IMG/VR virus record: IMGVR_UViG_3300038701_002343
Span: 1 to 41,913 of that record
From: a virus
DNA length: 41,913 nt
Strand: one strand, 5' to 3'
The notes beneath the pieces are model-generated. The model was not told the DNA's origin and made no database searches. It saw nothing but the letters and a program-made list of their open reading frames with translations. Numbering within the stretch: position 1 is the first letter of the stretch; each line of letters begins with the position of its first letter. Made by a program: the position numbers and the translations under genes. Shown in pieces: positions 10,594 through 35,770 of the stretch.

Positions 10594-10629
10594 TGCCGTA
10601 AGGGCCTATTGCAATAGGCCCTTACGGCA
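10594..10629. repeat. Perfect 36-bp palindrome after the lipoprotein gene
   Basis: The 18-base half-site reads TGCCGTAAGGGCCTATTG and is followed at once by its exact reverse complement, with no loop. The word GTAAGGGCC also occurs just upstream at 10582-10590. No T-run follows, so it is not a standard intrinsic terminator. It could be a cruciform, a dimer-binding site or the relic of a mobile hairpin. Confidence 0.85.
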
Positions 10630-14987: not shown

Positions 14988-15295
14988 TAACTAACCTCGG
15001 ATTATGACTGAATTAGAAAAGAAAATTTATGAACGTGCGCTTGAAATTCTGCCTGAATTAGAAAAAACAGTCAAGGTTGTTAAAACAAAAGCAAGATATA
15101 TATCATTCCCTTTTTTTTGTGACGGAGTAATTGATAAAATAATTTACGATACCAACGAGAGTAAATTCACAAAAATCGAATACACAAAAGGCAAAGGAAA
15201 TGGATCTACATTGGGACCATCAATGAATAAATTTTCTTCCCTCTTCGATGAAGTAGAAACATGTTCTTTTTATCTTCCAAATTAGAGATAACGGC
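14950..15295 (+). repeat. 346-bp direct repeat, copy 1
   Basis: Nearly identical to 15752-16097 (offset 802 bases), with roughly eight substitutions that I can see. It contains the 3' end of the HTH gene, a short linker and the whole 93-residue gene, and ends at GATAACGGC just after the stop codon, exactly where the attC-like hairpin begins. Confidence 0.95.
15004..15285 (+). CDS. Hypothetical 93-residue protein, duplicate copy 1
   Basis: A charged protein starting MTELEKKIYERALEIL, with a basic middle (VVKTKARYISF) and a C-terminal part rich in Lys, Gly and Ser. No family was recognised. A second copy at 15806-16087 differs at only two residues (Glu10 to Lys, and Asp to Asn near residue 81). 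It is followed directly by a long imperfect hairpin. Confidence 0.6.
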   Translation: MTELEKKIYERALEILPELEKTVKVVKTKARYISFPFFCDGVIDKIIYDTNESKFTKIEYTKGKGNGSTLGPSMNKFSSLFDEVETCSFYLPN

Positions 15296-15413
15296 CTTGA
15301 TAAAAAATCGGGCGGGATAACTGGCGTGAAGCCGCACTTAGGACGCTTGCAACATAGGTTCGGGTGCAATAATAGTAGCAATAGCCCCGCCTGTTTTTTA
15401 TCTATTGTTCTCC
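15285..15413 (+). repeat. attC-like imperfect hairpin, site A
   Basis: Begins at the stop codon of the 93-residue gene. Outer bases AGATAAC (15286-15292) pair with GTTCTCC (15407-15413). A longer inner stem, GATAAAAAATCGGGCGGG (15299-15316), pairs imperfectly with CCCGCCTGTTTTTTATC (15386-15402). The two stems are separated by unequal spacers. The AAC...GTT base, bipartite stem, asymmetric spacers and ~129-bp length resemble integron attC sites, although the GTT end does not match the full GTTRRRY consensus. Confidence 0.55.
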
Positions 15414-15443
15414 ATCTGGGCGGCTGAAACCAAATTTTGAATT

Positions 15444-15695
15444 ATGGAAATCGAAAATAAAGCTTGGAATTTATCCAGCGACAATTGTAAGTACATCGGC
15501 TATCGCGGGCTTAGGTTAGTGGTTTATCACAATATAAATGATCTATTCACTTGGTATGTGGAAACGAAAGCTGATGATGGAAAAAGAATCCTCCTTCATA
15601 GCGGACAGGATCACGGGGAAAAGCATTGCATGAGGCAAGCGGTTAAGGATGCGGACAGATATTTAGACAAAGATGATTTAACGAGAATTTTCTGA
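15444..15695 (+). CDS. Hypothetical 83-residue cassette protein
   Basis: A small protein with an N-terminal beta-rich part (YIGYRGLRLVVYHN, LFTWYVETKA) and a C-terminal charged helix (MRQAVKDADRYLDKDDL). It is not recognised. It lies between the two copies of the 346-bp repeat and within an imperfect inverted repeat (15405-15425 against 15695-15714, sharing TTGTTCTCCA and GGCGGCT), so it looks like a mobile cassette cargo gene. Confidence 0.55.
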   Translation: MEIENKAWNLSSDNCKYIGYRGLRLVVYHNINDLFTWYVETKADDGKRILLHSGQDHGEKHCMRQAVKDADRYLDKDDLTRIF

Positions 15696-15751
15696 GCCGC
15701 CTTGTGGAGAACAAGCGGATAAAGTGCACTCCATCACTAAATCACCCAATC

Positions 15752-16097
15752 ACTCAATCCCAGGATTCCCGGAGAATTCTGATAATTGATAACTAACTTC
15801 GGATTATGACTGAATTAGAAAAGAAAATTTATAAGCGTGCGCTTGAAATTCTGCCTGAATTAGAAAAAACAGTCAAGGTGGTTAAAACAAAAGCAAGATA
15901 TATATCATTCCCCTTTTTTTGTGACGGAGTAATTGATAAAATAATTTACGATACCAACGAGAGTAAATTCACAAAAATAGAATACACAAAAGGCAAAGGA
16001 AATGGATCTACATTGGGACCATCAATGAATAAATTTTCTTCCCTCTTCAATGAAGTAGAAACATGTTCTTTTTATCTTCCAAATTAGAGATAACGGC
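15752..16097 (+). repeat. 346-bp direct repeat, copy 2
   Basis: Second copy of the block at 14950-15295. It is preceded by a CATCAC-rich tract. Unlike copy 1, the attC-like hairpin is missing after GATAACGGC and another gene follows directly. Recombination between copies would delete 802 bp carrying the 83-residue gene. Confidence 0.95.
15806..16087 (+). CDS. Hypothetical 93-residue protein, duplicate copy 2
   Basis: Same protein as that at 15004-15285 except for two residues. Both copies are intact and in frame with identical ends (CSFYLPN), and several base differences are silent, which suggests either recent duplication or continued selection. No function is assigned. Confidence 0.6.
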   Translation: MTELEKKIYKRALEILPELEKTVKVVKTKARYISFPFFCDGVIDKIIYDTNESKFTKIEYTKGKGNGSTLGPSMNKFSSLFNEVETCSFYLPN

Positions 16098-16119
16098 AAA
16101 GGCTAAAACCAGTGCGACC

Positions 16120-16356
16120 ATGAAAAACGGAGATGTCAAAATGCTAATACGCAACCTTAGAAAAATGAGCGAACAAAAACACGATAAGCAAGCATTGGAT
16201 TTAGCCAATGTTGGCGATATGTGCCCATCCCACAAACCTAATTTGAAAAATAGTTATGTTCAGTGGCACGATTGGGCAGAAAGTCAGGCTAAAAAAGGGA
16301 TTAAGCAAACCCAGTGCGAAAAGTGTAAAAGGTGGTTCTTTCCTTCGGAGATGTAG
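16120..16356 (+). CDS. Small putative zinc-binding protein
   Basis: A 78-residue basic protein; ATG at 16120 is chosen because the upstream frame lies in the repeat. It has two Cys/His groups: CPSH near residue 35 and CEKCKRWFFPSEM at the C-terminus. Its ending resembles small phage proteins of Bacteroidota that finish GIKQxxCxxCxxWxFPSE. A role in nucleic-acid binding is plausible but not shown. Confidence 0.55.
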   Translation: MKNGDVKMLIRNLRKMSEQKHDKQALDLANVGDMCPSHKPNLKNSYVQWHDWAESQAKKGIKQTQCEKCKRWFFPSEM

Positions 16357-16368
16357 GGCATTATCGCC

Positions 16369-16439
16369 AACTCGGATATTAAAACATTGTGTTAATATCC
16401 TCACCAAAAAATGGAATTCAAAATTCAATAGATAAAATC
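16369..16439. repeat. 71-bp repeat with inner palindrome, left copy
   Basis: Matches 28701-28771 at about 66 of 71 positions, in the same orientation. It contains a near-perfect palindrome, GGATATTAA...TTAATATCC (16374-16400). It sits between converging transcripts: the accessory genes on the plus strand and the integrase on the minus strand. A bidirectional terminator or a recombination site would both fit. Confidence 0.85.
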
Positions 16440-16456
16440 TATAATAACCCCATCAC

Positions 16457-17650
16457 CTAATCCCGCACCATAAATCTACTTATCCTTAAACTCTCCGTCT
16501 TTTTCCGTGCTTCCATGATCTTTACATACTTTTCGGTTTGCTTCGTAGTCGTGTGCCCCATAAAGCTGGCAAGTACTTCCAGCTTCCCGTCATGCTCCAT
16601 ATACAAGGTGGCAAATGTTTCCCGGGCGATCTGAAAGCATACAGGCATCTTGATTTCAAGCAGGTCAGACACTTCATTGATGTACTTATTCTGCTTCTGC
16701 TCCGACATGCTACAGAACAGAGGAAACAAGCCTACCTCGTCCATCTCATCAGCAATCAAATCCACCGCCTCAGCGGTGATCGGCATCCGTACCCTCGTGC
16801 CAAATCGTTTGGTCTTATGCGGTACGAAATCAAAATTATCACCATCGATCCAGTCCAGTGTAAACCGCCTCAGGTCACCATGCCGAATGCCCGTCACACA
16901 GGAAAACAAAAATGCCCGCAAGACTATCCTATGCGAAGGATGGATCAGCGGCTCTTGATAAAAATCCCAAAACTGTAAAAATTCATCTTTGGTTAGTGGC
17001 CGGTACCTGCTGACCTCAGCCTTAGCCTTAAAATGATCGTAAGGATGGACAAACTCTATCCCATCCACTTTCTTAGCCTGATTAAGGTACGTCTTGAAAT
17101 TCTTATGATGTGCCCACCGCCCATTCAGCGTTTTGGCCCCTGTCTTTCGTGCCAGGTAAGTATCGAATAGCTGAGCAGTCCTGTTATTAAGATGCGAAAA
17201 AAGTAAATGATCATTCCAGGCTTCTAACGTGTTAAGCGTGCTCGTATGGTTCCGTTTGCTCTGATCATTGATCTCCCCCTGCCTATACCTGAGCAACATC
17301 TTCTTACGATAATACTCAATGACCGAATCCCTGTTAAGGTTAGAATAATATTCCTTCAAAAAAACAGGCAAAGAAAGTACCGTTTCCTGCAGGCGATGCC
17401 TAACAAAGATATCATTCGCTTTCCCCTCAGCAGCTGCCAGAATTAGATTATGATCATTATACCTGGTATCATCCTTAGATAGACTTAAGCACCGCCCCTT
17501 ATCCCTGTCAAACCTTTTCACCGGCCAGTAAAGCTTCAGATCAATATCCTTTCGCCTCCTGTCCACAATCACCCGGAGATACAACAGCACCGTCCCATCC
17601 ATCCTGACCCGTTGCGGATTAAAAACAATCTTTGCGCTACAATTTACCAT
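16457..17650 (-). CDS. Tyrosine recombinase, phage integrase
   Basis: A 397-residue protein, taking the ATG at 17650; a TTG 42 bases upstream is possible. The N-terminal arm-binding part (VRMDGTVLLYLRVIVDRRRKDIDL) and a SAM-like core-binding domain (about 90-200) are of the Bacteroidota type. The catalytic domain shows the first Arg in TGIRHGDL, Lys in PHKTKRFGTRV, the second Arg in QIARETFATLY, His in FMGHTT and the nucleophile Tyr in EKYVKI. The usual HxxR histidine is replaced by Gln. It would integrate and excise the prophage; attP probably lies in the flanking DNA but I cannot define it. Confidence 0.88.
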   Translation of the reverse strand: MVNCSAKIVFNPQRVRMDGTVLLYLRVIVDRRRKDIDLKLYWPVKRFDRDKGRCLSLSKDDTRYNDHNLILAAAEGKANDIFVRHRLQETVLSLPVFLKEYYSNLNRDSVIEYYRKKMLLRYRQGEINDQSKRNHTSTLNTLEAWNDHLLFSHLNNRTAQLFDTYLARKTGAKTLNGRWAHHKNFKTYLNQAKKVDGIEFVHPYDHFKAKAEVSRYRPLTKDEFLQFWDFYQEPLIHPSHRIVLRAFLFSCVTGIRHGDLRRFTLDWIDGDNFDFVPHKTKRFGTRVRMPITAEAVDLIADEMDEVGLFPLFCSMSEQKQNKYINEVSDLLEIKMPVCFQIARETFATLYMEHDGKLEVLASFMGHTTTKQTEKYVKIMEARKKTESLRISRFMVRD

Positions 17651-17828
17651 GTTGAAACAATGTTGTAACCACCCATTCAAATTACCTCCCAAACCTTATG
17701 CTCAGAATGACCCCCAGCACCGTTTTTCACACAATGCAGGGGGATTTGGTTTTATTGGTACACCCGGAAGGTGTCCTAAAAACCTTTCATTCACAGCTGT
17801 TTACAGATGTAAGTTGAAACCAGGTTGG
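17651..17828. other. Intergenic region between integrase and repressor
   Basis: 178 bases without a gene. It should contain the integrase promoter, reading leftward. CCCCCAGC near 17712 and GCAGGGGG near 17737 form a weak inverted repeat. No attP core can be identified from this sequence alone. Confidence 0.5.
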
Positions 17829-18230
17829 TTATTTTTGGAGTAATATTTTTAGAATTGCATCTTTTTTGGGGCCGGTGAGGTCTATGGAGACGGTGATATT
17901 ATCGGCCTGGACAGATGATTTTTTTGATGATGGAAGGGCAGGGATTATTTCCTGTCCAGGTTCATGGGCGAATGTTTTGGAAATAAGTTCCTGGGTATTA
18001 TAAGTTCGGGGGCTGCTTGGATCATGTTCAGATCGCCAGGATTCGGATAGAATTTGGTAAATATTAATTCCAAGCACCTTTGCATACGCTTCGATTGAGC
18101 CCATATGCAGGGCTGTTTTTTCAAAATCTTTCCTTACGGATGTTTCAGATTTCGCAACCTTTTCTGCTACTTCAGCAACAGAAAACCTTTTTTCCTTAAT
18201 TAATTCTTTGAGATAAGTACCTAAATGCAT
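17829..18230 (-). CDS. Probable prophage repressor (XRE-type HTH)
   Basis: A 133-residue protein with an N-terminal HTH (about 5-65: YLKELIKEKRFSVAEVAEKV, then SETSVRKDFE, then ALHMGSIEAYAKVLGINIYQIL). A Ser/Pro-rich linker and a short C-terminal segment (ITVSIDLTGPKKDAILKILL) follow, with no LexA/CI-type peptidase motif. It is divergent from the Cro-like gene, with operator-like repeats between them, the standard layout of a lysogeny switch. Absence of a peptidase domain suggests induction by means other than RecA-stimulated self-cleavage. Confidence 0.75.
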   Translation of the reverse strand: MHLGTYLKELIKEKRFSVAEVAEKVAKSETSVRKDFEKTALHMGSIEAYAKVLGINIYQILSESWRSEHDPSSPRTYNTQELISKTFAHEPGQEIIPALPSSKKSSVQADNITVSIDLTGPKKDAILKILLQK

Positions 18231-18434
18231 CTTAAAATTTTGTTAATCATTACATTAGGCTGCTAAGTTCCGAAAAAATACACTCCAATAATAACGAATT
18301 AAGCCCTTAAAAGTTTGGTTTTACACACATAAAAGTTAAAAAATAAAGCCTAAAATCAAGAAAATAGCAACCTAAAGTTTGGTAATTCAAAACTTTTTCT
18401 TTTTATTTGGTCATACAAAACCAAACAAAAAGTT
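18231..18434. promoter_or_regulatory. Lysogeny switch operator-promoter region
   Basis: 204-base AT-rich divergent region between repressor and Cro-like genes. Three related words occur: TTTGGTTTTACACACA (18314-18329), TTTGGTAATTCAAAAC (18378-18393) and TTTGGTCATACAAAACC (18406-18422), consensus TTTGGTnnTnCAnA. The third extends into an inverted half-site (ACCAAAC, 18420-18426) and lies just before the Cro-like start. These are the best candidates for repressor and Cro binding sites. Confidence 0.65.
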
Positions 18435-18653
18435 ATGAACCAGATCAAAAAGGTTATGAAAAACAAAGGGATAGAGGACATCAAGCCCACTGATGAAGTC
18501 CTGGAATCCCTGGGCGTGAAGATCCACACCTGGAACAAATGGGTAAGTGGTAAGAAAGACCCCACCATCACGCAGCTAGAGACTATATCCCAATTCCTGG
18601 GGTGTAAAGTATCCGAACTAATCCACAATGAGCATGAAGGGGCAAGTCTGTAA
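18435..18653 (+). CDS. Cro-like XRE-family regulator
   Basis: A 72-residue protein that is almost entirely a helix-turn-helix domain: KPTDEVLESLGVKIHTWNKWVSGKKDPTI, in which the second and third helices (about 25-50) form the DNA-reading unit, then QLETISQFLGCKVSEL. It is the first gene of the rightward early operon and faces the repressor across shared operators. It probably shuts off repressor synthesis when the lytic path is chosen. Confidence 0.75.
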   Translation: MNQIKKVMKNKGIEDIKPTDEVLESLGVKIHTWNKWVSGKKDPTITQLETISQFLGCKVSELIHNEHEGASL

Positions 18654-18927
18654 CCTGCTGCTAAGGATAGCCAACAGCCGGGAGCAGGCCTACCGGGCAG
18701 CTGGCAGGAGGGATATGGCACAGCTTAGGGCCATTACCAGGATCAGAAATGTAGCGGGGTATTTCAGCAACTACCCCGAAGAGACGCAACTGCGGGCAGT
18801 CATCAATCTGGAAGGTGAACTCATCGCCATCATGCCCGCACCGGAAAGCCGGTTTAGCAAGCTTAGAGAAAAGATTGATTCCCTGATCCAAAAAGCCTAC
18901 AAAAATGAGCATCAGCAAACATTTTGA
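18628..18927 (+). CDS. Early hypothetical protein, 99 residues
   Basis: A basic helical protein (LLLRIANSREQAYRAAGRRDMAQLRAITRIRNVAGYF). It overlaps the Cro-like gene by 26 bases and the next gene by 23. No motif was recognised. As an early gene under the Cro-side promoter it may act in takeover or replication control, but this is only position-based. Confidence 0.5.
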   Translation: MSMKGQVCNLLLRIANSREQAYRAAGRRDMAQLRAITRIRNVAGYFSNYPEETQLRAVINLEGELIAIMPAPESRFSKLREKIDSLIQKAYKNEHQQTF

Positions 18928-19144
18928 AGACGAGCGGCAATGGTTTCGCACCCGTGCCAGGCTTAAGAGAGGGTACAAGCTTACCCTCTGTGATCAGATC
19001 AGAAATCGCATCAGCTTGGACTGGATCAAGGCAGACGCACAGTGGAAGGCCAATTTTCGGGCTATCAGAGACTACGCCCATCAGGCCGTCACAGATGCAG
19101 AAATAGAAACATTTCTATCCAACCAAAACCTAAAAATAAAATGA
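18905..19144 (+). CDS. Early hypothetical protein, 79 residues
   Basis: A charged, Trp- and Arg-rich helical protein (ERQWFRTRARLKRGYKL, then RNRISLDWIKADAQWKANFRAIRDYAHQAV). It overlaps both neighbours and shares their codon use. There is no recognised family; the basic helices could contact nucleic acid. Confidence 0.5.
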   Translation: MSISKHFEDERQWFRTRARLKRGYKLTLCDQIRNRISLDWIKADAQWKANFRAIRDYAHQAVTDAEIETFLSNQNLKIK

Positions 19145-19359
19145 AACACATCGCTATATTTTTGGCTTATATCGCCATCATGGCTAACCTCAGTTATTAC
19201 TTTCAGCTGCAGGCCATGGGGGTGAATCTCTCAGGATGGATTACCATTGCTTACATCTTTACACCGCTTATCCTGGCGGCCATCCTTTCACTGATAGTCA
19301 TCCTGATAACAGCCGTAGGCATGCATTATAAGTGGTGGACCAAACCAGATACGATATGA
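19141..19359 (+). CDS. Early two-helix membrane protein
   Basis: A 72-residue protein with transmembrane helices at about 3-22 (IAIFLAYIAIMANLSYYF) and 32-58 (ITIAYIFTPLILAAILSLIVIL). ATG at 19141 directly abuts the previous gene (ATGA-like overlap) and is preferred to a longer frame starting inside it. Small early membrane proteins often serve superinfection exclusion; nothing more can be said. Confidence 0.5.
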   Translation: MKHIAIFLAYIAIMANLSYYFQLQAMGVNLSGWITIAYIFTPLILAAILSLIVILITAVGMHYKWWTKPDTI

Positions 19360-19517
19360 CTAAGAAGCTGATACTATCCATCATCATGGCAGCTGGCCTC
19401 TCCTTACTCATAATGGAAGCCATGCCATCTAAGAAGAAAGCCGTACGCATGTACCGAAGCATGAGAGCTTCCGGGAGACGTACCAGAAAAGATATTTTAG
19501 ACATCTACGAAGACTGA
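19356..19517 (+). CDS. Small early protein with one membrane helix
   Basis: A 53-residue protein starting at ATG 19356 inside the previous stop (ATGA). It has an N-terminal hydrophobic helix (LILSIIMAAGLSLLIMEA) followed by a strongly basic tail (KKKAVRMYRSMRASGRRTRKD). It is probably membrane-tethered with the basic end in the cytoplasm. The function is unknown. Confidence 0.45.
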   Translation: MTKKLILSIIMAAGLSLLIMEAMPSKKKAVRMYRSMRASGRRTRKDILDIYED

Positions 19518-19518
19518 C

Positions 19519-19821
19519 ATGGAATTATATATCAAAAGATTCCAGGCTTCGGAAGATAGCTGGAAAGACCCGCTACTCAGGTATGTAGACGAATACCTGG
19601 AAGTTATCGCCACAGAGATCATGGAAGACTATATTTATGACCTTCCTTCCCTGTACAAGTTCCTTACTGACCGGGTGAATGTATTTTTAGAAGCCAATCC
19701 GCTCAAATACCGAAAGCCTACAGGTTTTCACCTGGTATTTTACCAGCCCTCCTGCTGTCCCCATCATATCTGCATAGGGACTAAAACGGAGAAAATCAAA
19801 ATTTTTACCAAAACCAAATAA
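19519..19821 (+). CDS. Early hypothetical protein, 100 residues
   Basis: An acidic N-terminal half (SWKDPLLRYVDEYLEVIATEIMEDYIYDLPS) and a C-terminal part with a Cys/His cluster (SCCPHHICIG) that might bind a metal. It starts one base after the preceding stop. It is not recognised. Confidence 0.5.
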   Translation: MELYIKRFQASEDSWKDPLLRYVDEYLEVIATEIMEDYIYDLPSLYKFLTDRVNVFLEANPLKYRKPTGFHLVFYQPSCCPHHICIGTKTEKIKIFTKTK

Positions 19822-19823
19822 CC

Positions 19824-20216
19824 ATGACTACCTACACAGAAAGAGAAGGGAAAGAACCCTTTGACTGGAACAGCTTCCTGGACCGTGCTATCAGTGGAGA
19901 TGCCGATATAGTGGAGAACGACCTGGCAAAGCTATATGCCAAACACTGGGTGACCTGTGCCTGTGGCAATACCTGCGAAAGCATTCCACGAGATAGCATA
20001 GGCGCACCATTTGACCCGAAGCTCAGATCATTAGGCTTAGGATTCAACAGCGCTATTACTTTTGGTTATTACGAAAACGCCAAAGAAACTCTTAAGAGAA
20101 TAGAAAAAAGATCAGCCCAAATACTTTGGGAGATGGAAATAGAGGACAACACACTCACTCCATCACCATCTCACCCCATCACCCAACCCGGAAAGGAGGA
20201 CAATCATGAAACCTGA
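19824..20216 (+). CDS. Early hypothetical protein, 130 residues
   Basis: Contains CACGNTCESIPRD (about 46-58), whose Cys residues suggest a small metal site, and a helical C-terminal half. The last 20 residues (TPSPSHPITQPG) come from a CATCAC-rich low-complexity tract like those elsewhere in the window, so the C-terminus may have been extended by repeat insertion. It overlaps the next gene by 11 bases. Confidence 0.5.
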   Translation: MTTYTEREGKEPFDWNSFLDRAISGDADIVENDLAKLYAKHWVTCACGNTCESIPRDSIGAPFDPKLRSLGLGFNSAITFGYYENAKETLKRIEKRSAQILWEMEIEDNTLTPSPSHPITQPGKEDNHET

Positions 20217-20478
20217 CCACATCACCAGAGGAGACGCCATAGACCAGGTGCAGGAGCTTAGCGATCTGGCCAGGGGTACCGTCAGCATCCTCAGGCACAA
20301 GCAGCACCTTCGCAGAAATCGAGTCCACCACCTTTACCGAAAGAAAAATGAAATCACAACAGCCTACCAAAAATCCATCGCAGCCATCGACAGAGAAATT
20401 AAATCCACTGAATCCCGCTACCCTGCAGAAGGAGCTGGAAAGGTTCTCCCTCGAGGTGGAGATCCAGCAGACTTATAA
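20206..20478 (+). CDS. Early hypothetical protein, 90 residues
   Basis: A basic helical protein (AIDQVQELSDLARGTVSILRHKQHLRRNRVHHLYRKKNE). Its last 131 bases are also read in another frame by the gene at 20348. The N-terminal ~60 residues look like a normal coiled segment, while the final part (GAGKVLPRGGDPADL) looks like incidental translation of the second gene. Confidence 0.45.
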   Translation: MKPDHITRGDAIDQVQELSDLARGTVSILRHKQHLRRNRVHHLYRKKNEITTAYQKSIAAIDREIKSTESRYPAEGAGKVLPRGGDPADL

Positions 20479-20587
20479 CCGCCTGCACTGTATTCATGGG
20501 CTGGACCCGGTAAGAAAGAAAGTAGACACACAGAAGCTGCAGGTGCTCGAAGATCGCCTGCAGCGCATGGAAGGGGGAGAAGTATGA
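20348..20587 (+). CDS. Early hypothetical coiled-coil protein, 79 residues
   Basis: An N-terminal Gln/Pro/Ser-rich stretch followed by a coiled coil (LQKELERFSLEVEIQQTYNRL, then TQKLQVLEDRLQRMEGG). The stop overlaps the methyltransferase start (ATGA), which supports it as real. Its first 131 bases overlap the 20206 gene in a different frame. A later start is possible but no ATG is available in the overlap-free part. Confidence 0.45.
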   Translation: MKSQQPTKNPSQPSTEKLNPLNPATLQKELERFSLEVEIQQTYNRLHCIHGLDPVRKKVDTQKLQVLEDRLQRMEGGEV

Positions 20588-22152
20588 AGAATTCATATAT
20601 AACAGCAACAGATCAGTTTTGCGGGGCTGGCGGAAGTTCACAAGGAGCCAGGAAGGCTGGTGTAGAAGTTAAAATGGCATTGAACCACTGGAAGCTTGCT
20701 ATCGAAACACACAACACTAATTTTCCAGATACCCTCCATGACTGTACCGATATATCAGCATGTGACCCCAGAAGATATCCCAGCACAAACATTCTGATAA
20801 CTTCTCCGGAGTGCACCACACACAGCCCTGCAGGTGGTAACCGGCACAATAAGGTAAAACAATCAGTTGACCTTTTTGACAATGGCCTAATCGATCCATC
20901 TTCAGAAAGAAGCCGTGCCACGATGTGGGATGTTTGCAGATTTGCAGAATACCATGATTATGAAATCATCATAGTAGAGAACGTGGTCGAAGCAAAAACC
21001 AGGTGGGTGCTATTTGAAGTCTGGCTAAATGCGATGCATAAGCTCGGATATAATCACAAATGCCTTTACTTGAACTCTATGCATTTTTGGCCAACGCCAC
21101 AGAGCAGAGACAGGATGTATGTCGTTTTTTGGAAAAAAGGAAACAAAGCACCTGACCTGGACTATACACCAAAGGCATTTTGCACATGCTGTGGGAAGGA
21201 TGTAATGTCAGTACAAAACTGGAAAAATCCCTCACGGAAATTTGGAAAGTACAGAACCCAGTATGTATATGTATGCCCATCAGATGGGACTATTGTCACG
21301 CCTTACTACTACGCTGCTTTCAATGCTATAGACTGGTCAGATATTGGACAGAAGATAGGAGAGAGGAAAAAATCACTATCCCCTAATACGATGAACCGCA
21401 TCCAGTGGGGCCTTGATAAATATGGGGATGATCCGCTGATAATTCAAACAAGGCAAGTATCCGGTTTAGGATCAAGAGTGAAGAACAGCACCACTAACCC
21501 TATAGGCACCCAATGTACCGAATTAAGTCACGAAGTGGCTACGCCTATCATCGTAAAAGGTGAGCACACATCACTTCCCGGATATGTAAAGAAAATAGGA
21601 GACCCATTTATGACCCAAACTGTACGGCAGACATCCTCTCTGGTGATGCCCTGGATAATAGAAATGAACAAAACAGGAGAGGCCAAACCATCAGCAGAAA
21701 CTATGTCTACGATCACGGCAGGAGGGATCAATCATGCCTTGTTAACAAGTCCATTGATTGTTCAAAACAAAGGCCAAAGCAAGTCAAAACCCGCCACTCA
21801 ATCAATGCCTGCTCAAACTACAATGATCAATAACGGGATAGTTTCTCATCAGGCATGGAGTAGTTTTATCCAGTATTATTACAAGAGCAATCAATCCTCA
21901 AAGCTTTCTGAGCCTATAGGGACAGTGACAACAAATGACAGGTCATACATAGTCAATTACCAAAAACCACGCATAGAAGATTGCTATTACAGGATGATCA
22001 AGGCACCAGAGGTTAAAGCCTCAATGGCTTTCGATACAGATTATATAATCCTTGGAAACTCTAAAGAACAGGTGAAGCAATGCGGAAACGCTGTAACACC
22101 ACCAGTACAGGAGTGGATCATCAAACAATGCGTAAAATCTTTAGAGGAATGA
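20584..22152 (+). CDS. DNA (cytosine-5) methyltransferase
   Basis: A 522-residue protein. Motif I is DQFCGAGGSSQGARKAG (about 10-27, SAM binding). Motif IV carries the catalytic Cys in SPECTTHSPAGG (about 77-88), an unusual form of the canonical PPCQ. Motif VI is ENVVEAK (about 137), motif VIII QSRDRMYVVFW (about 173), and motif X GNAVTPPVQEW lies near the end (about 500). The long segment between VIII and X is the target-recognition region. It modifies cytosines in phage DNA, probably to evade host restriction. No cognate nuclease is seen nearby. It starts inside the previous gene's stop. Confidence 0.85.
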   Translation: MKNSYITATDQFCGAGGSSQGARKAGVEVKMALNHWKLAIETHNTNFPDTLHDCTDISACDPRRYPSTNILITSPECTTHSPAGGNRHNKVKQSVDLFDNGLIDPSSERSRATMWDVCRFAEYHDYEIIIVENVVEAKTRWVLFEVWLNAMHKLGYNHKCLYLNSMHFWPTPQSRDRMYVVFWKKGNKAPDLDYTPKAFCTCCGKDVMSVQNWKNPSRKFGKYRTQYVYVCPSDGTIVTPYYYAAFNAIDWSDIGQKIGERKKSLSPNTMNRIQWGLDKYGDDPLIIQTRQVSGLGSRVKNSTTNPIGTQCTELSHEVATPIIVKGEHTSLPGYVKKIGDPFMTQTVRQTSSLVMPWIIEMNKTGEAKPSAETMSTITAGGINHALLTSPLIVQNKGQSKSKPATQSMPAQTTMINNGIVSHQAWSSFIQYYYKSNQSSKLSEPIGTVTTNDRSYIVNYQKPRIEDCYYRMIKAPEVKASMAFDTDYIILGNSKEQVKQCGNAVTPPVQEWIIKQCVKSLEE

Positions 22153-25100
22153 ATAAACCTTTCAAATATACCCTAGAAGTAGGCTCCAAAAAACACCACT
22201 GCCCCGGATGTCAGAAAAAGTCCCTGGTAAGGTATGTATATACCGGTACGCGGGATTATGTAGGGGAGAACTTTGGCAGGTGCGACAGGGAGAATAACTG
22301 CGGATACCATCTGGTTCCGGAGAAAGATATTTCATCCCCCCCCAACCCCCCAACTAAAAAAGATATTCCCGAGCCGAAAACGCTAAAACCTACCCCAGAA
22401 TACCTCGAAAGTCTCAAAAACCAACAGTCTGGGAATCTTGCCCGGTTCTGTATGGGTAAGCTGGGAATGACCAAAGAACATTTGGTGAAATGGGGACTGT
22501 TTTCCTCATGGAAATTCGATGCCTTTGTTTTGTCCAATTTGGCAGGGGAGGCAGTTAATGTGAAGTTTGTGGTCTATACACCGGATGGCAAGCGGGACAA
22601 ATCCGAAAAGCCTGACGGCTCGCCCGCCTACTTCCCGCACTACCTGGGCAAGTCCTATCTGAAAAAGCAGGGCATCCTTATTGATCCCAAACAGCTGGAA
22701 GAATGGCAAGACCATTATAAGTTTGACCGCTGCTTCTATGGTGCCCACTTATGGGACCCTGAGCAGAACACCTGCCTGGTGGAATCTGAAAAGACCGCCC
22801 TGATCGCCTCCTGGTTTTTCCCCGGTGTGAACTGGCTCGCTACGGGTGGCAGCAATGGGATGAAGTACGAGCAGTTTGAGCTATTCCATGGATACAAGGG
22901 CCGGATTAGAAATCTGGTGGACAATGACCCTGCAGGCTATGAGAAGTCTAAGACCATACAGTGGCTGGACTTGCTCGCTGATCTCAGGGATGATCCGGAG
23001 GATATCATGTCTATCAATATTTTTCCTTCCAGTCCCGAAGGATGGGACATCGCCGATGCCATCATTAAGGATGGATACAGAGATAAAGACAAGTTCTACC
23101 ATGAGCTTAACCATGCCATGGACTGCCGCACAGACTACAGCATCGATGAAAGCACCGGAGAGGTGACAGCCCAGCCGGTCAAAAGGATCAGGCCGGACGA
23201 AAAGGAATACAAGCGCGCCACACAGGTGGCCGAGCGGATCTATGTAGACCAGGTTCCTATCATGCTGAGCAGTGAGGTCAATACCTTCACCATGATGGAG
23301 TCTCTCGCCTGCTTCGGAGAGCGGGGGCGCAGTATTGCCCGGAAGATACAGTCTGTGGTCAATATAGAACCTGAGACCACGGATGCTGCCTATAATCTGG
23401 CCATTGGCACACCGCATAAGGATGCAGGCTATTTCTTTGCCAAGGCTAAAGCGCATGGGGTAGATATCCGGTATATCAAGACCGCCAGATCAGAAGCCGC
23501 CGAAGGTGCTGAGGGCATAGATGCCAATGAGATATCCGTTACCTGGCCGGATGGTATGGAAAAGATGGAGGGCTTTGACCATAAGGCACTGATGCGGGAT
23601 GTTGCCAAGTATAATTTCATCGAATACAAGAACTGCACCTGGTACGGGATCTTCACAGGGAGCGAAAACAAGGGAAACCTTTCCCTGCACTTTGACCGGA
23701 TTAGTAATTTTACCATTCGGCCCCTGTACCTGATCAAGTCCAAGACCGATCCAAAGCGACTCTTTGAGATCAAGAATATATTTGGCATCAAGTACATCAT
23801 AGACATTCCGGCAAAGGCCCTGGTAAGCATGACCGAGTTTCAGGTATTCTGTGAGGGGCAGGGAAATTTCCTTTTCGAAGGGTCCAAGGTGCAGTTTACC
23901 AAGATCAAGCGCAAGCTGTACGACCATACCAAGGATGCCGAAGAGGTGAAAATGCTCGGATGGCAGGATGAGGGGTTCTATGCATTTGCGAACGGTGCCT
24001 TTCGAAAGGATCACTTTGACAAGGTAGATACCTATGGGATCATTCGCCACCTGGTGGAGAAGAACGACAGGGAGGCTGAGGAGAAGTACTTTTTCATCCC
24101 GGCGATGTCCAGCATATACAAGGACGAGAAGGACCAGTATGACATGGAGAAGAAGTTTGTCTATGTGAAGCGGCCTGATGTCAAGTTTGCCGACTGGGCC
24201 AGACTGTTTTATAATGTTTTCGGGGACAATGGCATGATAGGCATGGCCTATTACCTGAGCAGCCTTTACCGGGACATGATATATGCCAGGTTTAAGTTTT
24301 TCCCGCACCTCTTCCACTTTGGCCCACCCGGTACGGGCAAGAGTACCATGTGCTGGTCTATCCAGTACCTCTTCGGCTTGGAAAGAAAGCCATTTATGCT
24401 GAACGCTGGTACAGCTGTAGCCTTTCACCGGACATTTGCCCAGTTCAGAAATGCCGTCATCTGGTTTGATGAGTACAATAATAATATGGACATGAAGCGG
24501 GTGCAGGACTTAAAGTCTGCCTATGATGGTGCCGGGCATGTGAAGTCAGAGTGGAGCCAGACGGGAGGCACCAGCAACAGGACGAACACCACTCCTGTGG
24601 AATCTGCCTGTAATATCTCAGGGCAAGAGCTTCCCATCGCTGACAATGCGCTTTTCAAAAGGTGCATCCTGCTGCAATACTACCAGACCACCTTTTCTGA
24701 TGAAGACAAGGAGCAGCTCAGTAAGCTGCAGAAGCTACAGGAGAAGGGCCTCAGCCACCTGACCGGAGCCATCACCATCTTTCGGGAGAAGATGGAAAAG
24801 GAATATTTCCCGACCTTCGATAAGGTAGAGAAAGAGATCCTTACCGCCCTGCAGGATGATCCCACCATCGAGAGCCGGATCGTTAAGAACATCTGTGTAG
24901 TGGCCACTACCTACCGTATCCTAAAGGACGAACTCAATTTTCCCTACAGCTGGGACGACTTCATGGACGTGATGCTGCGCAATGTCCGATCGCAAAACGC
25001 CCTGATCAGCAATGCCAAGGAGACCAACCAGTTTTGGGACATGGTGGAGTACTGTATCTCTGAGGGCGAGCTTAAGGATGAGGAAGATTTCAAGATCGAA

Positions 25101-25499
25101 GACAGGCAGATGGTAAAGGTGATCGTAGACCGAAAGACCGTAGAGCGAAACCTGGGCGGAATGCGAAAGGTGCTGTATATCCGTCTGGCCACTGCCCACC
25201 CTAAGTACCAGGAGGCACTGCGCAAGCAGGGAGAAAAGAAGGGCATGGACAAAGGCTCCCTGGCGCACTACCTCAGCCACAGCCCCGGATTTATCGGGAT
25301 GGTAAGCAGTACGAGGTTTAAAAATGGAGACCGGAACTTTGCCAGCTCAGCCTATGCCTTTGAGTACAGGTACCTGGAAGACGCCGGCTATAACTTCGAC
25401 CGTGTCAACTTCCAGGTAGACGATGAAGACCAAAACCCGGAGGATGATCCGGAGCAAGTTTTCGAAAAAAAGGAAGGAGAAAATGATGAATTGTTCTAA
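22149..25499 (+). CDS. Primase-helicase: zinc finger, TOPRIM and P-loop ATPase
   Basis: A 1116-residue protein. ATG at 22149 lies in the methyltransferase stop (ATGA). Residues 18-21 (CPGC) and about 43-51 (CDRENNCGYH) form a DnaG-like zinc finger. A TOPRIM core follows: LVESEKTALIASW (about 208-220) with the conserved Glu, and LVDNDPAGYEKS (about 256-267) with the paired Asp. The C-terminal ATPase has Walker A GPPGTGKSTMCW (about 726-737) and Walker B AVIWFDEYNNN (about 769-779). It primes and unwinds DNA at the phage fork. C8 and C6 runs at 22336-22350 encode a Pro-rich linker after the zinc finger. Confidence 0.88.
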   Translation: MNKPFKYTLEVGSKKHHCPGCQKKSLVRYVYTGTRDYVGENFGRCDRENNCGYHLVPEKDISSPPNPPTKKDIPEPKTLKPTPEYLESLKNQQSGNLARFCMGKLGMTKEHLVKWGLFSSWKFDAFVLSNLAGEAVNVKFVVYTPDGKRDKSEKPDGSPAYFPHYLGKSYLKKQGILIDPKQLEEWQDHYKFDRCFYGAHLWDPEQNTCLVESEKTALIASWFFPGVNWLATGGSNGMKYEQFELFHGYKGRIRNLVDNDPAGYEKSKTIQWLDLLADLRDDPEDIMSINIFPSSPEGWDIADAIIKDGYRDKDKFYHELNHAMDCRTDYSIDESTGEVTAQPVKRIRPDEKEYKRATQVAERIYVDQVPIMLSSEVNTFTMMESLACFGERGRSIARKIQSVVNIEPETTDAAYNLAIGTPHKDAGYFFAKAKAHGVDIRYIKTARSEAAEGAEGIDANEISVTWPDGMEKMEGFDHKALMRDVAKYNFIEYKNCTWYGIFTGSENKGNLSLHFDRISNFTIRPLYLIKSKTDPKRLFEIKNIFGIKYIIDIPAKALVSMTEFQVFCEGQGNFLFEGSKVQFTKIKRKLYDHTKDAEEVKMLGWQDEGFYAFANGAFRKDHFDKVDTYGIIRHLVEKNDREAEEKYFFIPAMSSIYKDEKDQYDMEKKFVYVKRPDVKFADWARLFYNVFGDNGMIGMAYYLSSLYRDMIYARFKFFPHLFHFGPPGTGKSTMCWSIQYLFGLERKPFMLNAGTAVAFHRTFAQFRNAVIWFDEYNNNMDMKRVQDLKSAYDGAGHVKSEWSQTGGTSNRTNTTPVESACNISGQELPIADNALFKRCILLQYYQTTFSDEDKEQLSKLQKLQEKGLSHLTGAITIFREKMEKEYFPTFDKVEKEILTALQDDPTIESRIVKNICVVATTYRILKDELNFPYSWDDFMDVMLRNVRSQNALISNAKETNQFWDMVEYCISEGELKDEEDFKIEDRQMVKVIVDRKTVERNLGGMRKVLYIRLATAHPKYQEALRKQGEKKGMDKGSLAHYLSHSPGFIGMVSSTRFKNGDRNFASSAYAFEYRYLEDAGYNFDRVNFQVDDEDQNPEDDPEQVFEKKEGENDELF

Positions 25500-25509
25500 A
25501 AAAGAAATC

Positions 25510-26325
25510 ATGAAAATAGAAACAAACCTATATAGAGATCATTTCCAAAACTTTAAGAGGTATAATATACCAAAGGCTCAGCTAATTATTGCAGATATTC
25601 CATATAACATAGGGAAAAACGCATATGGATCAAATCCTAGCTGGTATATAGGTGGAGATAATAAAAATGGATCTTCTGAATTAGCTGGAAAAGAGTTTTT
25701 TGATACTGACAAAGATTTTAGACCTGCAGAGTTTATGCATTTCTGCTCTCAGATGATGAAAAAAGAGCCAAAGGAAAAGGGGAAAGCCCCATGTATGATT
25801 GTTTTTTGTTCTTTTGAACAGCAATTTCCTCTTATTGAATTAGCTAAGAGATACGGTTTGATGAAATATATAAATCTTGTCTTTAGGAAAAACTTTTCAG
25901 CTCAGGTGCTTAAGGCTAACATGAGAATTGTAGGTAATTGTGAATATGCCTTACTATTCTACAGGGATAAATTACCTAAATTCAATAACCACGGCAAAAT
26001 GGTAATGAACTGCATAGATTGGGAGAAAGACATGAAAAGTGAATTCAAAATACACCCCACTCAAAAACCTGTGAAATTGATTAAAAGACTAATTGAAATT
26101 TTCACGGACGAAGGTGAAGTAGTAATTGATCCAGTGGCTGGGAGCGCAAGCACTTTGGTAGCAGCAATAGAGAGCGGAAGGAAAAGTTATGGGTTTGAAA
26201 TCAAAAAAGATTTTCATACCAAAGGTGTTGAATGGGTTTCCAGAATTATACAAAGGAAATATGATATAGAAAAATTTGGTTTTTCAAAAACCGAGATTAA
26301 TAACCAATCACCAACGTTATTCTAA
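25510..26325 (+). CDS. DNA adenine/cytosine-N4-type methyltransferase
   Basis: A 271-residue protein. The catalytic motif IV appears as ADIPYNIG (about 28-35), a DPPY variant with Ile at the second position. The SAM-binding motif I comes late as DPVAGSASTLVAAIESGRKS (about 212-231), with FEIKK next. This IV-before-I order is that of the beta class, which methylates exocyclic amines. ATG at 25510 avoids overlap with the primase; ATG at 25483 is also possible. Base composition is much AT-richer than the primase before it, suggesting separate acquisition. Confidence 0.8.
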   Translation: MKIETNLYRDHFQNFKRYNIPKAQLIIADIPYNIGKNAYGSNPSWYIGGDNKNGSSELAGKEFFDTDKDFRPAEFMHFCSQMMKKEPKEKGKAPCMIVFCSFEQQFPLIELAKRYGLMKYINLVFRKNFSAQVLKANMRIVGNCEYALLFYRDKLPKFNNHGKMVMNCIDWEKDMKSEFKIHPTQKPVKLIKRLIEIFTDEGEVVIDPVAGSASTLVAAIESGRKSYGFEIKKDFHTKGVEWVSRIIQRKYDIEKFGFSKTEINNQSPTLF

Positions 26326-26369
26326 TGATCCGCTCTGAAAATAATTTTATCCCCGCAACCCCCATTTTC

Positions 26370-26630
26370 TGTTCCAACTGTTCCACATGTTCCAACAAAA
26401 TTAAAAAACCTTATTTAAAGGCTATAAAGGGACATTGTATCAAAAAAAGAAGGGTGGATTTGTTGGAACAGCGTTGGTCAGTGTTGGAACGTGTTGGAAC
26501 ACGTTGGTTTTGTTGGAACAGCGTTGGAACAGGTTTTTTTGATAAAAACCGCCTCCATAGGCTGGAATCAAAGATTTTTCGGTTTGTTGGAACAGTTGGA
26601 ACAGTTGGAACGCATTTCGTGTGTTGGAAA
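26370..26630. other. Iteron array, candidate replication origin
   Basis: Three tandem 9-mers on one strand (TGTTCCAAC at 26370, TGTTCCACA at 26379, TGTTCCAAC at 26388), then about 65 bases of AT-rich DNA, then seven GTTGG-headed words at 26462, 26473, 26483, 26493, 26503, 26512 and 26523, spaced 9-11 bases, and after a gap three exact tandem GTTGGAAC(A/G) at 26586, 26595 and 26604, with a partial copy at 26623. Opposed iterons flanking an easily melted stretch behind a primase-helicase gene is the architecture of a phage or plasmid origin. Confidence 0.65.
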
Positions 26631-26863
26631 AAAAAGAGGTAAAAATCGGCATAAAACGGGTGAAATCCATCCGTGAGCTACAGGAGGATACCAGTCAGGG
26701 ATGGAAAAGGAAACTCGGACAGCTGTATTTTCAGCAGCTCGAGGATGGAAACATGGTACCACGAGTGGTCAGCGAAAGAACAAATGGCCGCTGGGTGCAG
26801 CATATGATCGGTAAAGGTTTGCTGTGGATAGCAGAGGGTGGTGGTGTTTGTGAGATGAGTTAG
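26621..26863 (+). CDS. Hypothetical basic protein, 80 residues or fewer
   Basis: Conserved-looking small protein, rich in Lys, Arg and Trp (RVKSIRELQEDTSQGWKRK, then RWVQHMIGKGLLWIAEGGG). No ATG is available: GTG at 26621, TTG at 26624 and GTG at 26657 are candidates, the first two lying in the last iteron-like word. A later GTG would avoid reading the iterons as protein. The role is unknown. Confidence 0.5.
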   Translation: MLEKKEVKIGIKRVKSIRELQEDTSQGWKRKLGQLYFQQLEDGNMVPRVVSERTNGRWVQHMIGKGLLWIAEGGGVCEMS

Positions 26864-26865
26864 AT

Positions 26866-26896
26866 TTTAGATGTTAGAAGTTAGAAGTTAGAAAAA
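26866..26896 (+). repeat. Short TTAGAAG tandem repeat
   Basis: Three imperfect copies of a seven-base unit (TTAGATG, TTAGAAG, TTAGAAG) directly before the small gene at 26897. Only a short low-complexity tract. Confidence 0.7.
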
Positions 26897-27004
26897 ATGA
26901 AAAGCGAAATCGAAATAACATACGACTCCTGCTACCGTGGGCGGATAGAGATCCACACGATCATAGCCACGGGCGAAGTCATCTATTATAGCATCATCAG
27001 GTGA
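26897..27004 (+). CDS. Tiny hypothetical protein, 35 residues
   Basis: ATG at 26897, reading MKSEIEITYDSCYRGRIEIH and ending in IIR. It has alternating strand-like composition and normal codon use, and its stop overlaps the GTG at 27001 (GTGA). It is probably a real small gene, but there is no independent support. Confidence 0.35.
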   Translation: MKSEIEITYDSCYRGRIEIHTIIATGEVIYYSIIR

Positions 27005-27027
27005 TAAATTATTTTAAACAGAAAAAG

Positions 27028-27261
27028 ATGGATAAGCCATATAACTACAGAATGACCGTAAGCCAGGTACTCAAATCCTGCGAAAAACACAGGTACCTGC
27101 TCCTAAGATATCCTGACGGCAGAGTAATAGGAATAAATACAAAAGTAGCCGGGCTATCAAAGGCTAAATTTAAAGCCCATGGCAATAAAAAATCAGAATT
27201 CATTTCTTACCGCGTGATCAGCTTTCAGGAGTACATATCGTGTAAAAGCGGGTTTGTTTAA
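27028..27261 (+). CDS. Hypothetical protein, 77 residues, ends at attC-like site B
   Basis: A basic protein (VSQVLKSCEKHRYLLLRYPDGRVIGINTKVAGLSKAKFKAHG) with a beta-rich first half. ATG at 27028 is preferred; an in-frame GTG at 27001 would couple it to the tiny gene before. Its TAA stop is inside GTTTAAC, the 5' edge of the following attC-like hairpin, as typical of integron cassette genes. Confidence 0.55.
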   Translation: MDKPYNYRMTVSQVLKSCEKHRYLLLRYPDGRVIGINTKVAGLSKAKFKAHGNKKSEFISYRVISFQEYISCKSGFV

Positions 27262-27390
27262 CGACGGTCAAGCATAATATTAGGCGGTCTTTCAAGGCTC
27301 GGAACTATCCGCCCGAAACTAACTTAAATAGAGAGCCACAAGCGGCTAAAAAGCCCAATACTGCCCGCTTAATTTTATGCAGTGTTGGCA
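27256..27390 (+). repeat. attC-like imperfect hairpin, site B
   Basis: GTTTAAC at 27256-27262 matches the attC RYYYAAC box. GCATAATATTAGGCGG (27272-27287) pairs with CCGCTTAATTTTATGC (27365-27380) at 14 of 16 positions. GTTGGCA at 27384-27390 is at the opposite edge and partly matches GTTRRRY. A spacer of nine bases on the left and three on the right leaves an unpaired bulge on one side. The loop is about 77 bases with internal small stems. The layout is the same as sites A and C. Confidence 0.6.
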
Positions 27391-27399
27391 AACGTTATT

Positions 27400-27768
27400 A
27401 TGGTACTTGGATTCAAAAAACAATTTGTCGATAAAATACTTGACGGCAGAAAAATTCACACTATTCGGGAAGATAAGAATAGACGATGGCAACAAGGAAT
27501 GAAGATTCATTTTGCTACTGGTGTAAGGACAAAAAAGTATAATCAGTTTAAGCAAGGTTTTTGTAAATGGAATCAATCGGTTGAGCTTTACCCCGAAAGC
27601 AGAGAAATATATCTTGGGCTAAATGGCGGGATGCACTTACTGGACAAAAATCACAATGAAATGTTTGCGAAAAATGATGGCTTTGATTCTGAAGATGAAT
27701 TTTGGGAATGGTTCAATAAACCTTTCTATGGCGTTGTAATTCATTGGACGGACTTTGTCTATTCTTAA
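27400..27768 (+). CDS. ASCH-like domain protein, cassette gene
   Basis: A 122-residue protein with the ASCH/PUA-like signature: MVLGFKKQFVDKILDGRKIHTIR followed by RRWQQGMKIHFATGVR near residues 28-43. The final strands contain FYGVVIHWTDF. ASCH domains bind RNA or modified nucleosides, and the family includes nucleoside deaminase-like and RNA-processing regulators. It is the only gene between attC-like sites B and C, an almost exactly cassette-sized unit (about 464 bp). AT-rich compared with the early operon. Confidence 0.7.
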   Translation: MVLGFKKQFVDKILDGRKIHTIREDKNRRWQQGMKIHFATGVRTKKYNQFKQGFCKWNQSVELYPESREIYLGLNGGMHLLDKNHNEMFAKNDGFDSEDEFWEWFNKPFYGVVIHWTDFVYS

Positions 27769-27772
27769 TGTT

Positions 27773-27854
27773 TTCCAACGTCCGACAGCTTGTCTTAGTG
27801 GCTTTGGTTGTGCGGTTGGTTCGTGCGGGCCATTGAGACAAGGTGGTGTTATGA
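27773..27854 (+). repeat. attC-like imperfect hairpin, site C
   Basis: TTCCAAC (27773-27779) lies four bases after the ASCH gene stop. TTGTCTTAGTGGC (27790-27802) pairs with GCCATTGAGACAA (27829-27841) at 11 of 13 positions, and GTTATGA at 27848-27854 closes the element. The left spacer (10) and right spacer (6) are unequal. Loop of 26 bases. It is shorter than A and B but has the same order of parts. Confidence 0.55.
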
Positions 27855-28015
27855 TCTGGTGAGGACATCAACGGATTAGATCTTCAACTCTTAGGAGGCG
27901 CTTTTCTTTTATTTTTTGAGCGTTGGGGAAAATATTTTAATAAATATATTATAAATTGTTTGGCATTATAATATATATATTGTATATTTACATAACAATT
28001 AAAACAAACAAAGAC
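27855..28015 (+). promoter_or_regulatory. Intergenic region with Bacteroidota-type promoter
   Basis: About 160 bases without a gene. It holds TTTGG at 27959-27963, a 19-base spacer and TATATTTAC at 27983-27991, the same box and spacing as the promoter at 14226. The start codon at 28016 follows 24 bases later. It should drive the next three small genes. Confidence 0.65.
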
Positions 28016-28264
28016 ATGACACTTACAAAAAATCAAATCGTAGAAAAATTAGAAAAAATGAACAACTACACTGATTTTTCAAATCATTTCGCTCAAAATG
28101 CCTTAGAAGTTGGGACAGTATTAAACGGAATGAAATTTAAAGGTGAAACCATTGTAGGTTACGAAGTTGATGAAACCGACATTTCAATGACTCCTTATGT
28201 AGCAGTGGTAACAGACAAAGGAAATAAATCAGGATGGTCATTAATCGCAAAAACTCAAAAATAA
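28016..28264 (+). CDS. Hypothetical 82-residue protein
   Basis: An acidic-to-neutral small protein beginning MTLTKNQIVEKLEKMNNYTD, with a beta-rich second half (GETIVGYEVDETDISMTPYVAVVTDKG). It is not recognised. It has its own strong promoter and AT-rich composition, as expected for a gene expressed in the lysogen. Confidence 0.55.
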   Translation: MTLTKNQIVEKLEKMNNYTDFSNHFAQNALEVGTVLNGMKFKGETIVGYEVDETDISMTPYVAVVTDKGNKSGWSLIAKTQK

Positions 28265-28265
28265 T

Positions 28266-28466
28266 ATGAAAACTCAATTAGAAATTATTAAGGAAAAAAA
28301 GAAATGTATATCTCCAGACTATTATGTGGCTGCATTCAAGGATGGATCTGTATCAGAGTGGTTGGATATGAGTTCTGTTCCACACCCAAATGAAGGGGAT
28401 TATGTCAGGATATTCAAAAGAGACACTGACTCAGATATAGAAACAAAATTAGGATCAATGATATGA
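28266..28466 (+). CDS. Hypothetical 66-residue protein
   Basis: Starts one base after the preceding stop and overlaps the next gene by four. It contains KKKCISPDYYVAAFKDGSVSEW and a GDYVRIFKRD segment that could form a small beta barrel. No family was recognised. Confidence 0.5.
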   Translation: MKTQLEIIKEKKKCISPDYYVAAFKDGSVSEWLDMSSVPHPNEGDYVRIFKRDTDSDIETKLGSMI

Positions 28467-28669
28467 CCGAACATGAAAAATTTGAATCCCTGCTAAATGA
28501 AGCAGAGATTTCACGCCATGATCTGGCTGAACATCTTGGATTGGCTTATGGATCGGTTCAAAATCAGTTAGCACCATCCAAAGACCTTCCTCGCTGGGCA
28601 AAGTCTATCATGTTGTACCAGGAGCGAAGGGAAAAAATAAAAGAAAAGGATAGTGAGGATGGTGGTTGA
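28463..28669 (+). CDS. Small HTH-like protein
   Basis: A 68-residue protein whose core FESLLNEAEISRHDLAEHLG followed by LAYGSVQNQLAPSKDLPRWA looks like a compact XRE-type helix-turn-helix. It ends in a charged tail (REKIKEKDSEDGG). It is last in the three-gene unit and may regulate its own promoter or the nearby late leader. Confidence 0.6.
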   Translation: MTEHEKFESLLNEAEISRHDLAEHLGLAYGSVQNQLAPSKDLPRWAKSIMLYQERREKIKEKDSEDGG

Positions 28670-28700
28670 TGCTTCGGAAATGCCGTCCTCACTGGATCAT

Positions 28701-28771
28701 AACTCGGATATTAACACATTGTGTTAATATCCTGATCAAAAAATGGAACCCAAAATTCAATAGATAAAATC
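28701..28771. repeat. 71-bp repeat with perfect inner palindrome, right copy
   Basis: Copy of 16369-16439. Here the palindrome is perfect: GGATATTAACAC, a three-base loop, then GTGTTAATATCC (28706-28732). It follows the end of the early-side genes. The two copies bracket the 12.3-kb integrase-repressor-replication module. Confidence 0.85.
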
Positions 28772-28784
28772 AATATCTAACAAT

Positions 28785-35669: not shown

Positions 35670-35716
35670 TGCATGATATTTAAAATTGACAGCAGATAGT
35701 AGTAGGTAGTTATTTT

Positions 35717-35770
35717 GGGTTTATGGGGAAACGGCTCTGACATTGTCAGGGTCGTTTTTTTTATGTCCTC
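35717..35770 (+). repeat. 54-bp repeat containing a terminator, copy 1
   Basis: Identical to 38591-38644. It begins GGGTTTATGGGGAAACGG and contains the terminator stem ACGGCTCTGACA/TGTCAGGGTCGT with a three-base loop and eight T (35731-35762), and ends ATGTCCTC. The two copies flank the AT-rich fibre insert and are 2874 bp apart. Confidence 0.95.

Follow-up and report, generated by a model that had tools for sequence, protein, structure and literature searches.

The window analysed here is a linear virus record of 41.9 kb from IMG/VR (IMGVR_UViG_3300038701_002343, 41,913 nucleotides), in which small genes are followed by hairpins. These hairpins are, with a probability of roughly 0.86, attC-type recombination sites of a cassette system that resembles integrons and operates without the integron integrase IntI. 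By the IntI criterion the system is not an integron, by its behaviour it works like one; it is widespread and often carried by viruses themselves. Integrons spread antibiotic-resistance genes. The arrays of Bacteroidota and their phages described below probably form a separate lineage of integron-like gene-capture platforms, with recombinases that lack the IntI insertion and with a phage-specialised branch of inverted genes that is reshuffled during phage propagation.

Sites and cassettes of the window

Sites were detected with three covariance models of our own, all built without window sequence: R1 from 28 bacterial array elements, R2 from 95 array hits and R3 from 131 viral sites. Site D is recognised by all three (R1 23.7, R2 38.3 and R3 50.2 bits, the last with E 5e-8), site B by R1 (41 bits, E 3.9e-6) and R2 (39 bits), and site A by R3 (28.9 bits, E 0.0013). 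On control sequence, R1 yields no match at E<=1 over 458 kb, 262 kb of which are IntI arrays, R2 reaches 14.1 bits at best over 505 kb with one weak match in all, and R3 15.3 bits at best in 196 kb without integrons; some attC sites of IntI arrays are weakly recognised by R3 (20-27 bits). Because models from other genomes match them with clean controls, A, B and D are members of one attC-like site family. The polarity of this family puts all window sites on the minus strand, with the genes on the plus strand. At A, B and D, hairpins with the AAC/GTT edges and unequal spacers of attC follow cassette genes; site C is weak in this respect and passes edge pairing, both with B and with the repeat D3.2.

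The sequence-only reading of the window had placed three hairpins (A, B and C), each by the stop codon of a small gene, and all three are present there. Of its three-site account, A and B are backed by the models, but D had escaped notice, C is weak alone and site polarity runs opposite to the genes. The hairpin positions stand, although GTTGGCAAAC at 27384, and not the last CGTT, serves as the functional right edge of B. As that reading had noted, GTTTAAC at B fits the consensus RYYYAAC, and the GTT ends GTTGGCAAAC and GTTATGATC do not fit GTTRRRY.

Hairpins A, B and C fall within two plus-strand clusters of small genes, 15004-16371 (array 1) and 27013-28703 (array 2; Table 1). Edge pairing was scored by comparing the 7 bases that follow the left GTT of a cassette with those preceding its right AAC, read as reverse complement. 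From D to D3.1 all seven positions pair (GTTGGCGATA/TATCGCCAAC), from B to C six of seven (GTTGGCAAAC/GTTTTCCAAC) and from C to D3.2 likewise six of seven (GTTATGATC/GATCATAAC). The summed score of four pairs, whose edges were picked by eye, is 21 and exceeds all 400,000 random draws (maximum 20). As its edge boxes pair, the gene with the ASCH domain is assigned a cassette at 27384-27847, so that the full cassette of about 464 bp proposed earlier is borne out, with edges exactly at 27384 and 27848. The gene matches phrog_8581 (E 4e-20). Its relatives occur in 39 genome loci, of which the 24 inspected have no flanking sites, and ASCH homology is therefore uninformative on cassettes. The gene of 77 amino acids in array 2 is bounded by TTAAACA and TGTTTAA.

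In array 1, GTTCTCCA..GGGCGGCT and its complement lie on either side of the gene of 83 amino acids, the hairpin of which is shortened by the duplication after it. The two copies of gene A show 10 differences in 348 nt, and their identity stops just past ATAACGGC, the left edge of the hairpin. Homology between the repeats D3.1 and D3.2 starts exactly at AAC. D3 is a near-perfect terminator-like palindrome with no exact match in the viral contigs and a candidate for the primary insertion (attI-like) site.

Folding energy, which had been suggested as a check, does not separate the hairpins from shuffled sequence (z -1.6 for A, -0.1 for B and +0.2 for C), while the family models match B, D and A; the loops are long, which makes folding energy a poor test for attC-like sites. 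A strict seed-based pairing scan overlooks bulged sites and a looser scan is far too permissive. None of the Rfam RNA families matches the window at the gathering threshold. An origin as ordinary terminators, or by chance at the ends of genes, would agree with the shuffle-like energies of B and C, the position of the sites at stop codons and the terminator-like palindrome of D3, but it is extremely unlikely in view of full-length model matches with clean controls, pairing edge boxes and the clean loss of cassettes in the arrays of relatives (see below).

Table 1. Sites, cassettes and other features of the window (aa, amino acids)
Feature	Position	Strand	Remarks
attC-like site A	15281-15418	minus	AAC 15290-15292, GTT 15407-15409; spacers 4/6 nt in family polarity
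attC-like site D	16083-16221	minus	spacers 3/6 nt; overlooked in the sequence-only reading
attC-like site B	27254-27395	minus	plus-strand right edge GTTGGCAAAC at 27384
attC-like site C	27768-27859	minus	AAC 27777-27779, GTT 27848-27850
Gene A, copy 1	15004-15285	plus	93 aa, assigned to no known family; stop codon adjoins hairpin A
Segment with inverted ends, 83-aa gene (15444-15695)	15407-15713	plus	ends GTTCTCCATCTGGGCGGCT ... AGCCGCCCTTGTGGAGAAC
Gene A, copy 2	15806-16087	plus	
Cassette, 45-aa zinc-ribbon-like open reading frame (16219-16356)	16210-16371	plus	edges GTTGGCGATA/TATCGCCAAC pair 10/10
Repeat D3.1	16369-16443		palindrome GGATATTAA..TTAATATCC; adjoins cassette edge and 3' end of integrase
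Repeat D3.2	28701-28775		92% identical to D3.1; end of array 2
Cassette, 77-aa gene (27028-27261)	27013-27261	plus	start TTAAACA pairs with B edge TGTTTAAC
Complete 464-bp cassette, ASCH-domain gene (27400-27768)	27384-27847	plus	edges pair 9/10
Cassette, three small genes (28016-28264, 28266-28466, 28463-28669)	27848-28703	plus	edges GTTATGATC/GATCATAAC
Tape-measure gene	11489-13921		
Phage tyrosine integrase	16457-17692	minus	Arm-DNA-bind_5 type
Primase	22080-25499		
Head maturation protease	32415-33725		

Arrays and recombinases in Bacteroidota and viruses

A DNA search with hairpin B in 395 Bacteroidota genomes finds its right arm again in G123, G230, G145 and G108, each time as one arm of a gene-end hairpin. 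In G230 such hairpins occur in clusters, one of them a 29-kb stretch of small genes on the same strand, each followed by a hairpin of about 140 nt. This array (C1:1105000-1134000; L161+L162) contains one gene of 263 amino acids in five copies with 98-99% DNA identity, which suggests recent cassette duplication; the gene is leucine-rich-repeat-like. Hairpins of this family are present in Bacteroidota genomes as well as in viral contigs, where the sequence-only reading had advised to look for them, and its proposal of integron-like cassettes of a related, undescribed system gains support, since the window sites belong to the family of these long arrays. Complementarity of edge boxes extends over about 10 nt; over the 7 bases scored, at least six pair in 44 of 71 consecutive bacterial pairs (2.6% of mismatched pairs) and in 77 of 117 viral pairs (3.3%).

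The array-bearing genomes G230, G123, G145 and G108 possess no IntI above the cut-off. The best sub-threshold IntI matches of G230, G123 and G108 adjoin the arrays, and the sites of G145 adjoin a broken copy. These bacterial array enzymes are tyrosine recombinases of 370-392 amino acids, nearest to the XerA and IntI models and under the IntI cut-off. Boxes I and II are 91-92 residues apart, compared with 133 in IntI and 98 in Xer, and the bacterial array recombinases therefore lack the IntI insertion, which has been stated to be essential for integron function (PMC8138268). In a first tree these bacterial enzymes group with IntI, and XerC/D fall outside; a second, quicker tree gives the viral enzymes a clade of their own and leaves the deeper order unsettled.

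Twenty loci fetched only for their recombinase contain 51 hairpin matches, strong ones in at least 11 loci. In these strong loci the hairpins share the strand of the recombinase and lie mostly downstream of it, so that in bacteria a recombinase is followed by its array, both pointing the same way; in G230, 51 nt separate the recombinase stop from the start of the first cassette. A small zinc-ribbon-like gene lies divergently beside three of the bacterial array-type recombinases (L173:2269-2640, L176:3707-4090 and L175:11160-11573) and is possibly a conserved partner.

Eighty viral contigs, fetched only by alignment of the recombinase protein, contain 206 hairpin matches, all on the strand opposite to the recombinase except for three weak ones. 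Some of the array-bearing contigs reach at least 300 kb. Viral arrays are located upstream of the recombinase, which mostly measures 263-268 amino acids and has a box I-box II spacing of 86. Genes run against site polarity in 101 of the 104 cassettes from viruses and along with it in 34 of the 39 from bacteria; with its genes on the plus and its sites on the minus strand, the window follows the viral pattern. Phage transcription possibly runs opposite to site polarity, in which case only inverted cassettes would be expressed. Cellulophaga phage Ingeline_1 (L282) has a relative of the viral recombinase and no R3 site nearby, and some members of this recombinase group may be ordinary phage integrases.

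Classical IntI-type cassettes could also have landed in the phage as a cluster of attC sites lacking integron integrases (CALIN). Phage-borne attC sites recognised by IntI1 are known, among them those of a Polaribacter phage, which point in divergent directions (Qi et al. 2023, PMC9892861), IntI is common in the sampled Bacteroidota, and the weak R3 response to some attC sites of IntI arrays would fit as well. Such an origin is nevertheless improbable: R1 and R2 both find B and D, yet R1 has no match in the IntI arrays of the controls and R2 a single weak one in all of them, and the matching arrays adjoin recombinases without the IntI insertion in genomes where no IntI exceeds the cut-off.

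IntI above the NCBIfam cut-off occurs in 105 of the 395 sampled Bacteroidota genomes, several of them with classical attC arrays (L087, L088, L091, L093, L102, L103 and L105). This share is far above what published surveys of complete genomes suggest; IntegronFinder 2.0 reported one complete integron in Bacteroidetes proper (PMC9024848).

Cassette loss and exchange in phages

The Polaribacter phages Freya_1, 2, 5, 8 and 10 were isolated on one host; their genomes measure 44.0-48.9 kb, their integrase was taken as a sign of lysogeny, and the words "integron" and "cassette" are absent from the paper (PMC8776804). Over 43.2 kb the five genomes share 99.99-100% identity, and they are set apart by cassette losses of 4942, 4100, 3198 and 902 bp just upstream of the integrase, a relative of the viral recombinase, in an array within which R3 finds sites. 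Every junction lies at AAC, as a crossover at G^TT predicts, and the ends share AAC only (CAAC once). These losses are natural evidence of cassette excision at GTT, seen in Freya and not in the window. The terminators of fixed position without exchange at AAC/GTT, which the sequence-only reading had set against its own proposal, do not agree with the Freya cassettes, gained or lost exactly at these edges.

One viral contig (L278) is 66-73% identical to the window over parts. Tape measure and integrase are 92 bp apart in it, compared with 2.5 kb in the window, which leaves the array-1 site empty; at the place of array 2 it carries five other genes, one ThyX-like and four small. Content has therefore been exchanged at both array places, and the related phages do not always carry the same genes with the same hairpins. 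L278 has no strong site; its best R3 match (18.3 bits at 13521-13689, minus strand, array-2 region) is possibly a decayed one.

The duplicated gene A, the truncated site of the window and the unrelated genes at the array-2 place of L278 would also be expected from a phage hot spot in which small genes are exchanged as repeated hairpins recombine homologously or illegitimately. The Freya deletions, however, end at the same place in the site every time, their shared AAC is too short to serve homologous recombination, and edge pairing is cassette-specific; a hot spot of this kind is very unlikely.

Nature of the system and its phage carriers

Several points weigh against the interpretation of the hairpins as attC-type sites. 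Only R3 finds site A, with no report from R1 or R2; site C (R2 13.7 bits, E 0.54) is not significant by model score alone; and the E-values of all three models are rough. No matching box is present at the left end of array 1, and the duplication of gene A and the truncated site of the 83-amino-acid gene show decay. Neither IntI, whose absence had already been noted from the sequence, nor an array-type recombinase was recognised among the window genes tested. The Freya recombinase is 37% identical to the viral query, and the Freya losses are known from a comparison of genomes and not from an assay. At its level of identity and without D3, L278 provides no exact empty site.

The phage integrase next to array 1 was considered as array recombinase and rejected, being unrelated in sequence to the array recombinases; it is probably not the cassette enzyme. 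Searches of the viral contigs find no relatives of gene A, the ASCH gene or this integrase, and a DNA search of phage records finds no match to the array-1 region. Just upstream of array 2, at 26369-26611, TGTTGGAACA recurs densely in direct and inverted orientation; this may be a replication origin or a repressor site. A 59-nt repeat with 97% identity, which contains a terminator-like hairpin and a T-run, is located between structural genes at 35712-35770 and 38586-38644, and a perfect, loopless 18-bp inverted repeat (TGCCGTAAGGGCCTATTG/CAATAGGCCCTTACGGCA) at 10594-10629.

As in integrons and CALINs (IntI, attI, attC), each hairpin site of the arrays goes with one small gene and has imperfect stems that end in AAC/GTT and spacers of unequal length; edge boxes are complementary, crossover is at GTT and the arrays stand beside a tyrosine recombinase. 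They differ from integrons in their recombinases, which lack the IntI insertion (box I-box II spacing of 91-92 or 86) and fall into separate clades, in sites whose models see those of IntI arrays weakly or not at all, in edge boxes of about 10 nt instead of 7, and in orientation, with recombinase and array co-directional in chromosomes and cassettes inverted in viruses. The phage-borne integron components of Qi et al. 2023 (PMC9892861) likewise comprise cassettes and attC in phage genomes; their sites were detected on the basis of IntI and tested with IntI1, and a dedicated phage recombinase other than IntI was not described there. XerA, archaeal Xer-like and IntI recombinases (PDB 4a8e, 5hxy, 2a3v; NCBIfam NF040815, TIGR02249) belong to the same protein family and are nearest by sequence, whereas the new bacterial proteins possess an extra N-terminal part of about 90 amino acids, stand beside cassette arrays and score under the IntI cut-off. 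A description of non-IntI cassette arrays was not found in the literature, preprints and most subscription papers being outside our coverage.

In the mechanism that we propose, each cassette would consist of a small gene, or a few, and a folded site, with ends formed by boxes of about 10 nt, one the reverse complement of the other. A tyrosine recombinase, whose gene adjoins the arrays in Bacteroidota chromosomes (about 370-390 amino acids) and in many phages (about 265-271 amino acids), would exchange cassettes at the GTT/AAC triplet and may have caused the losses; it probably acts on one strand folded as a hairpin. The window phage has two short arrays of cassettes of the phage type, which would be served in trans, with D3 as their presumed insertion site; as no such enzyme was recognised among the window genes tested, its cassettes would move only with that of the host or of a co-infecting phage.

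If this is true, the capture of cassettes by folded sites has a second molecular solution, overlooked by current tools. With the Freya isolates, a cultured phage-host pair is at hand in which the reaction can be tested at once. Phages with such arrays, by carrying and trimming them, would act as direct vehicles of small genes whose function is unknown and may lie in counter-defence.

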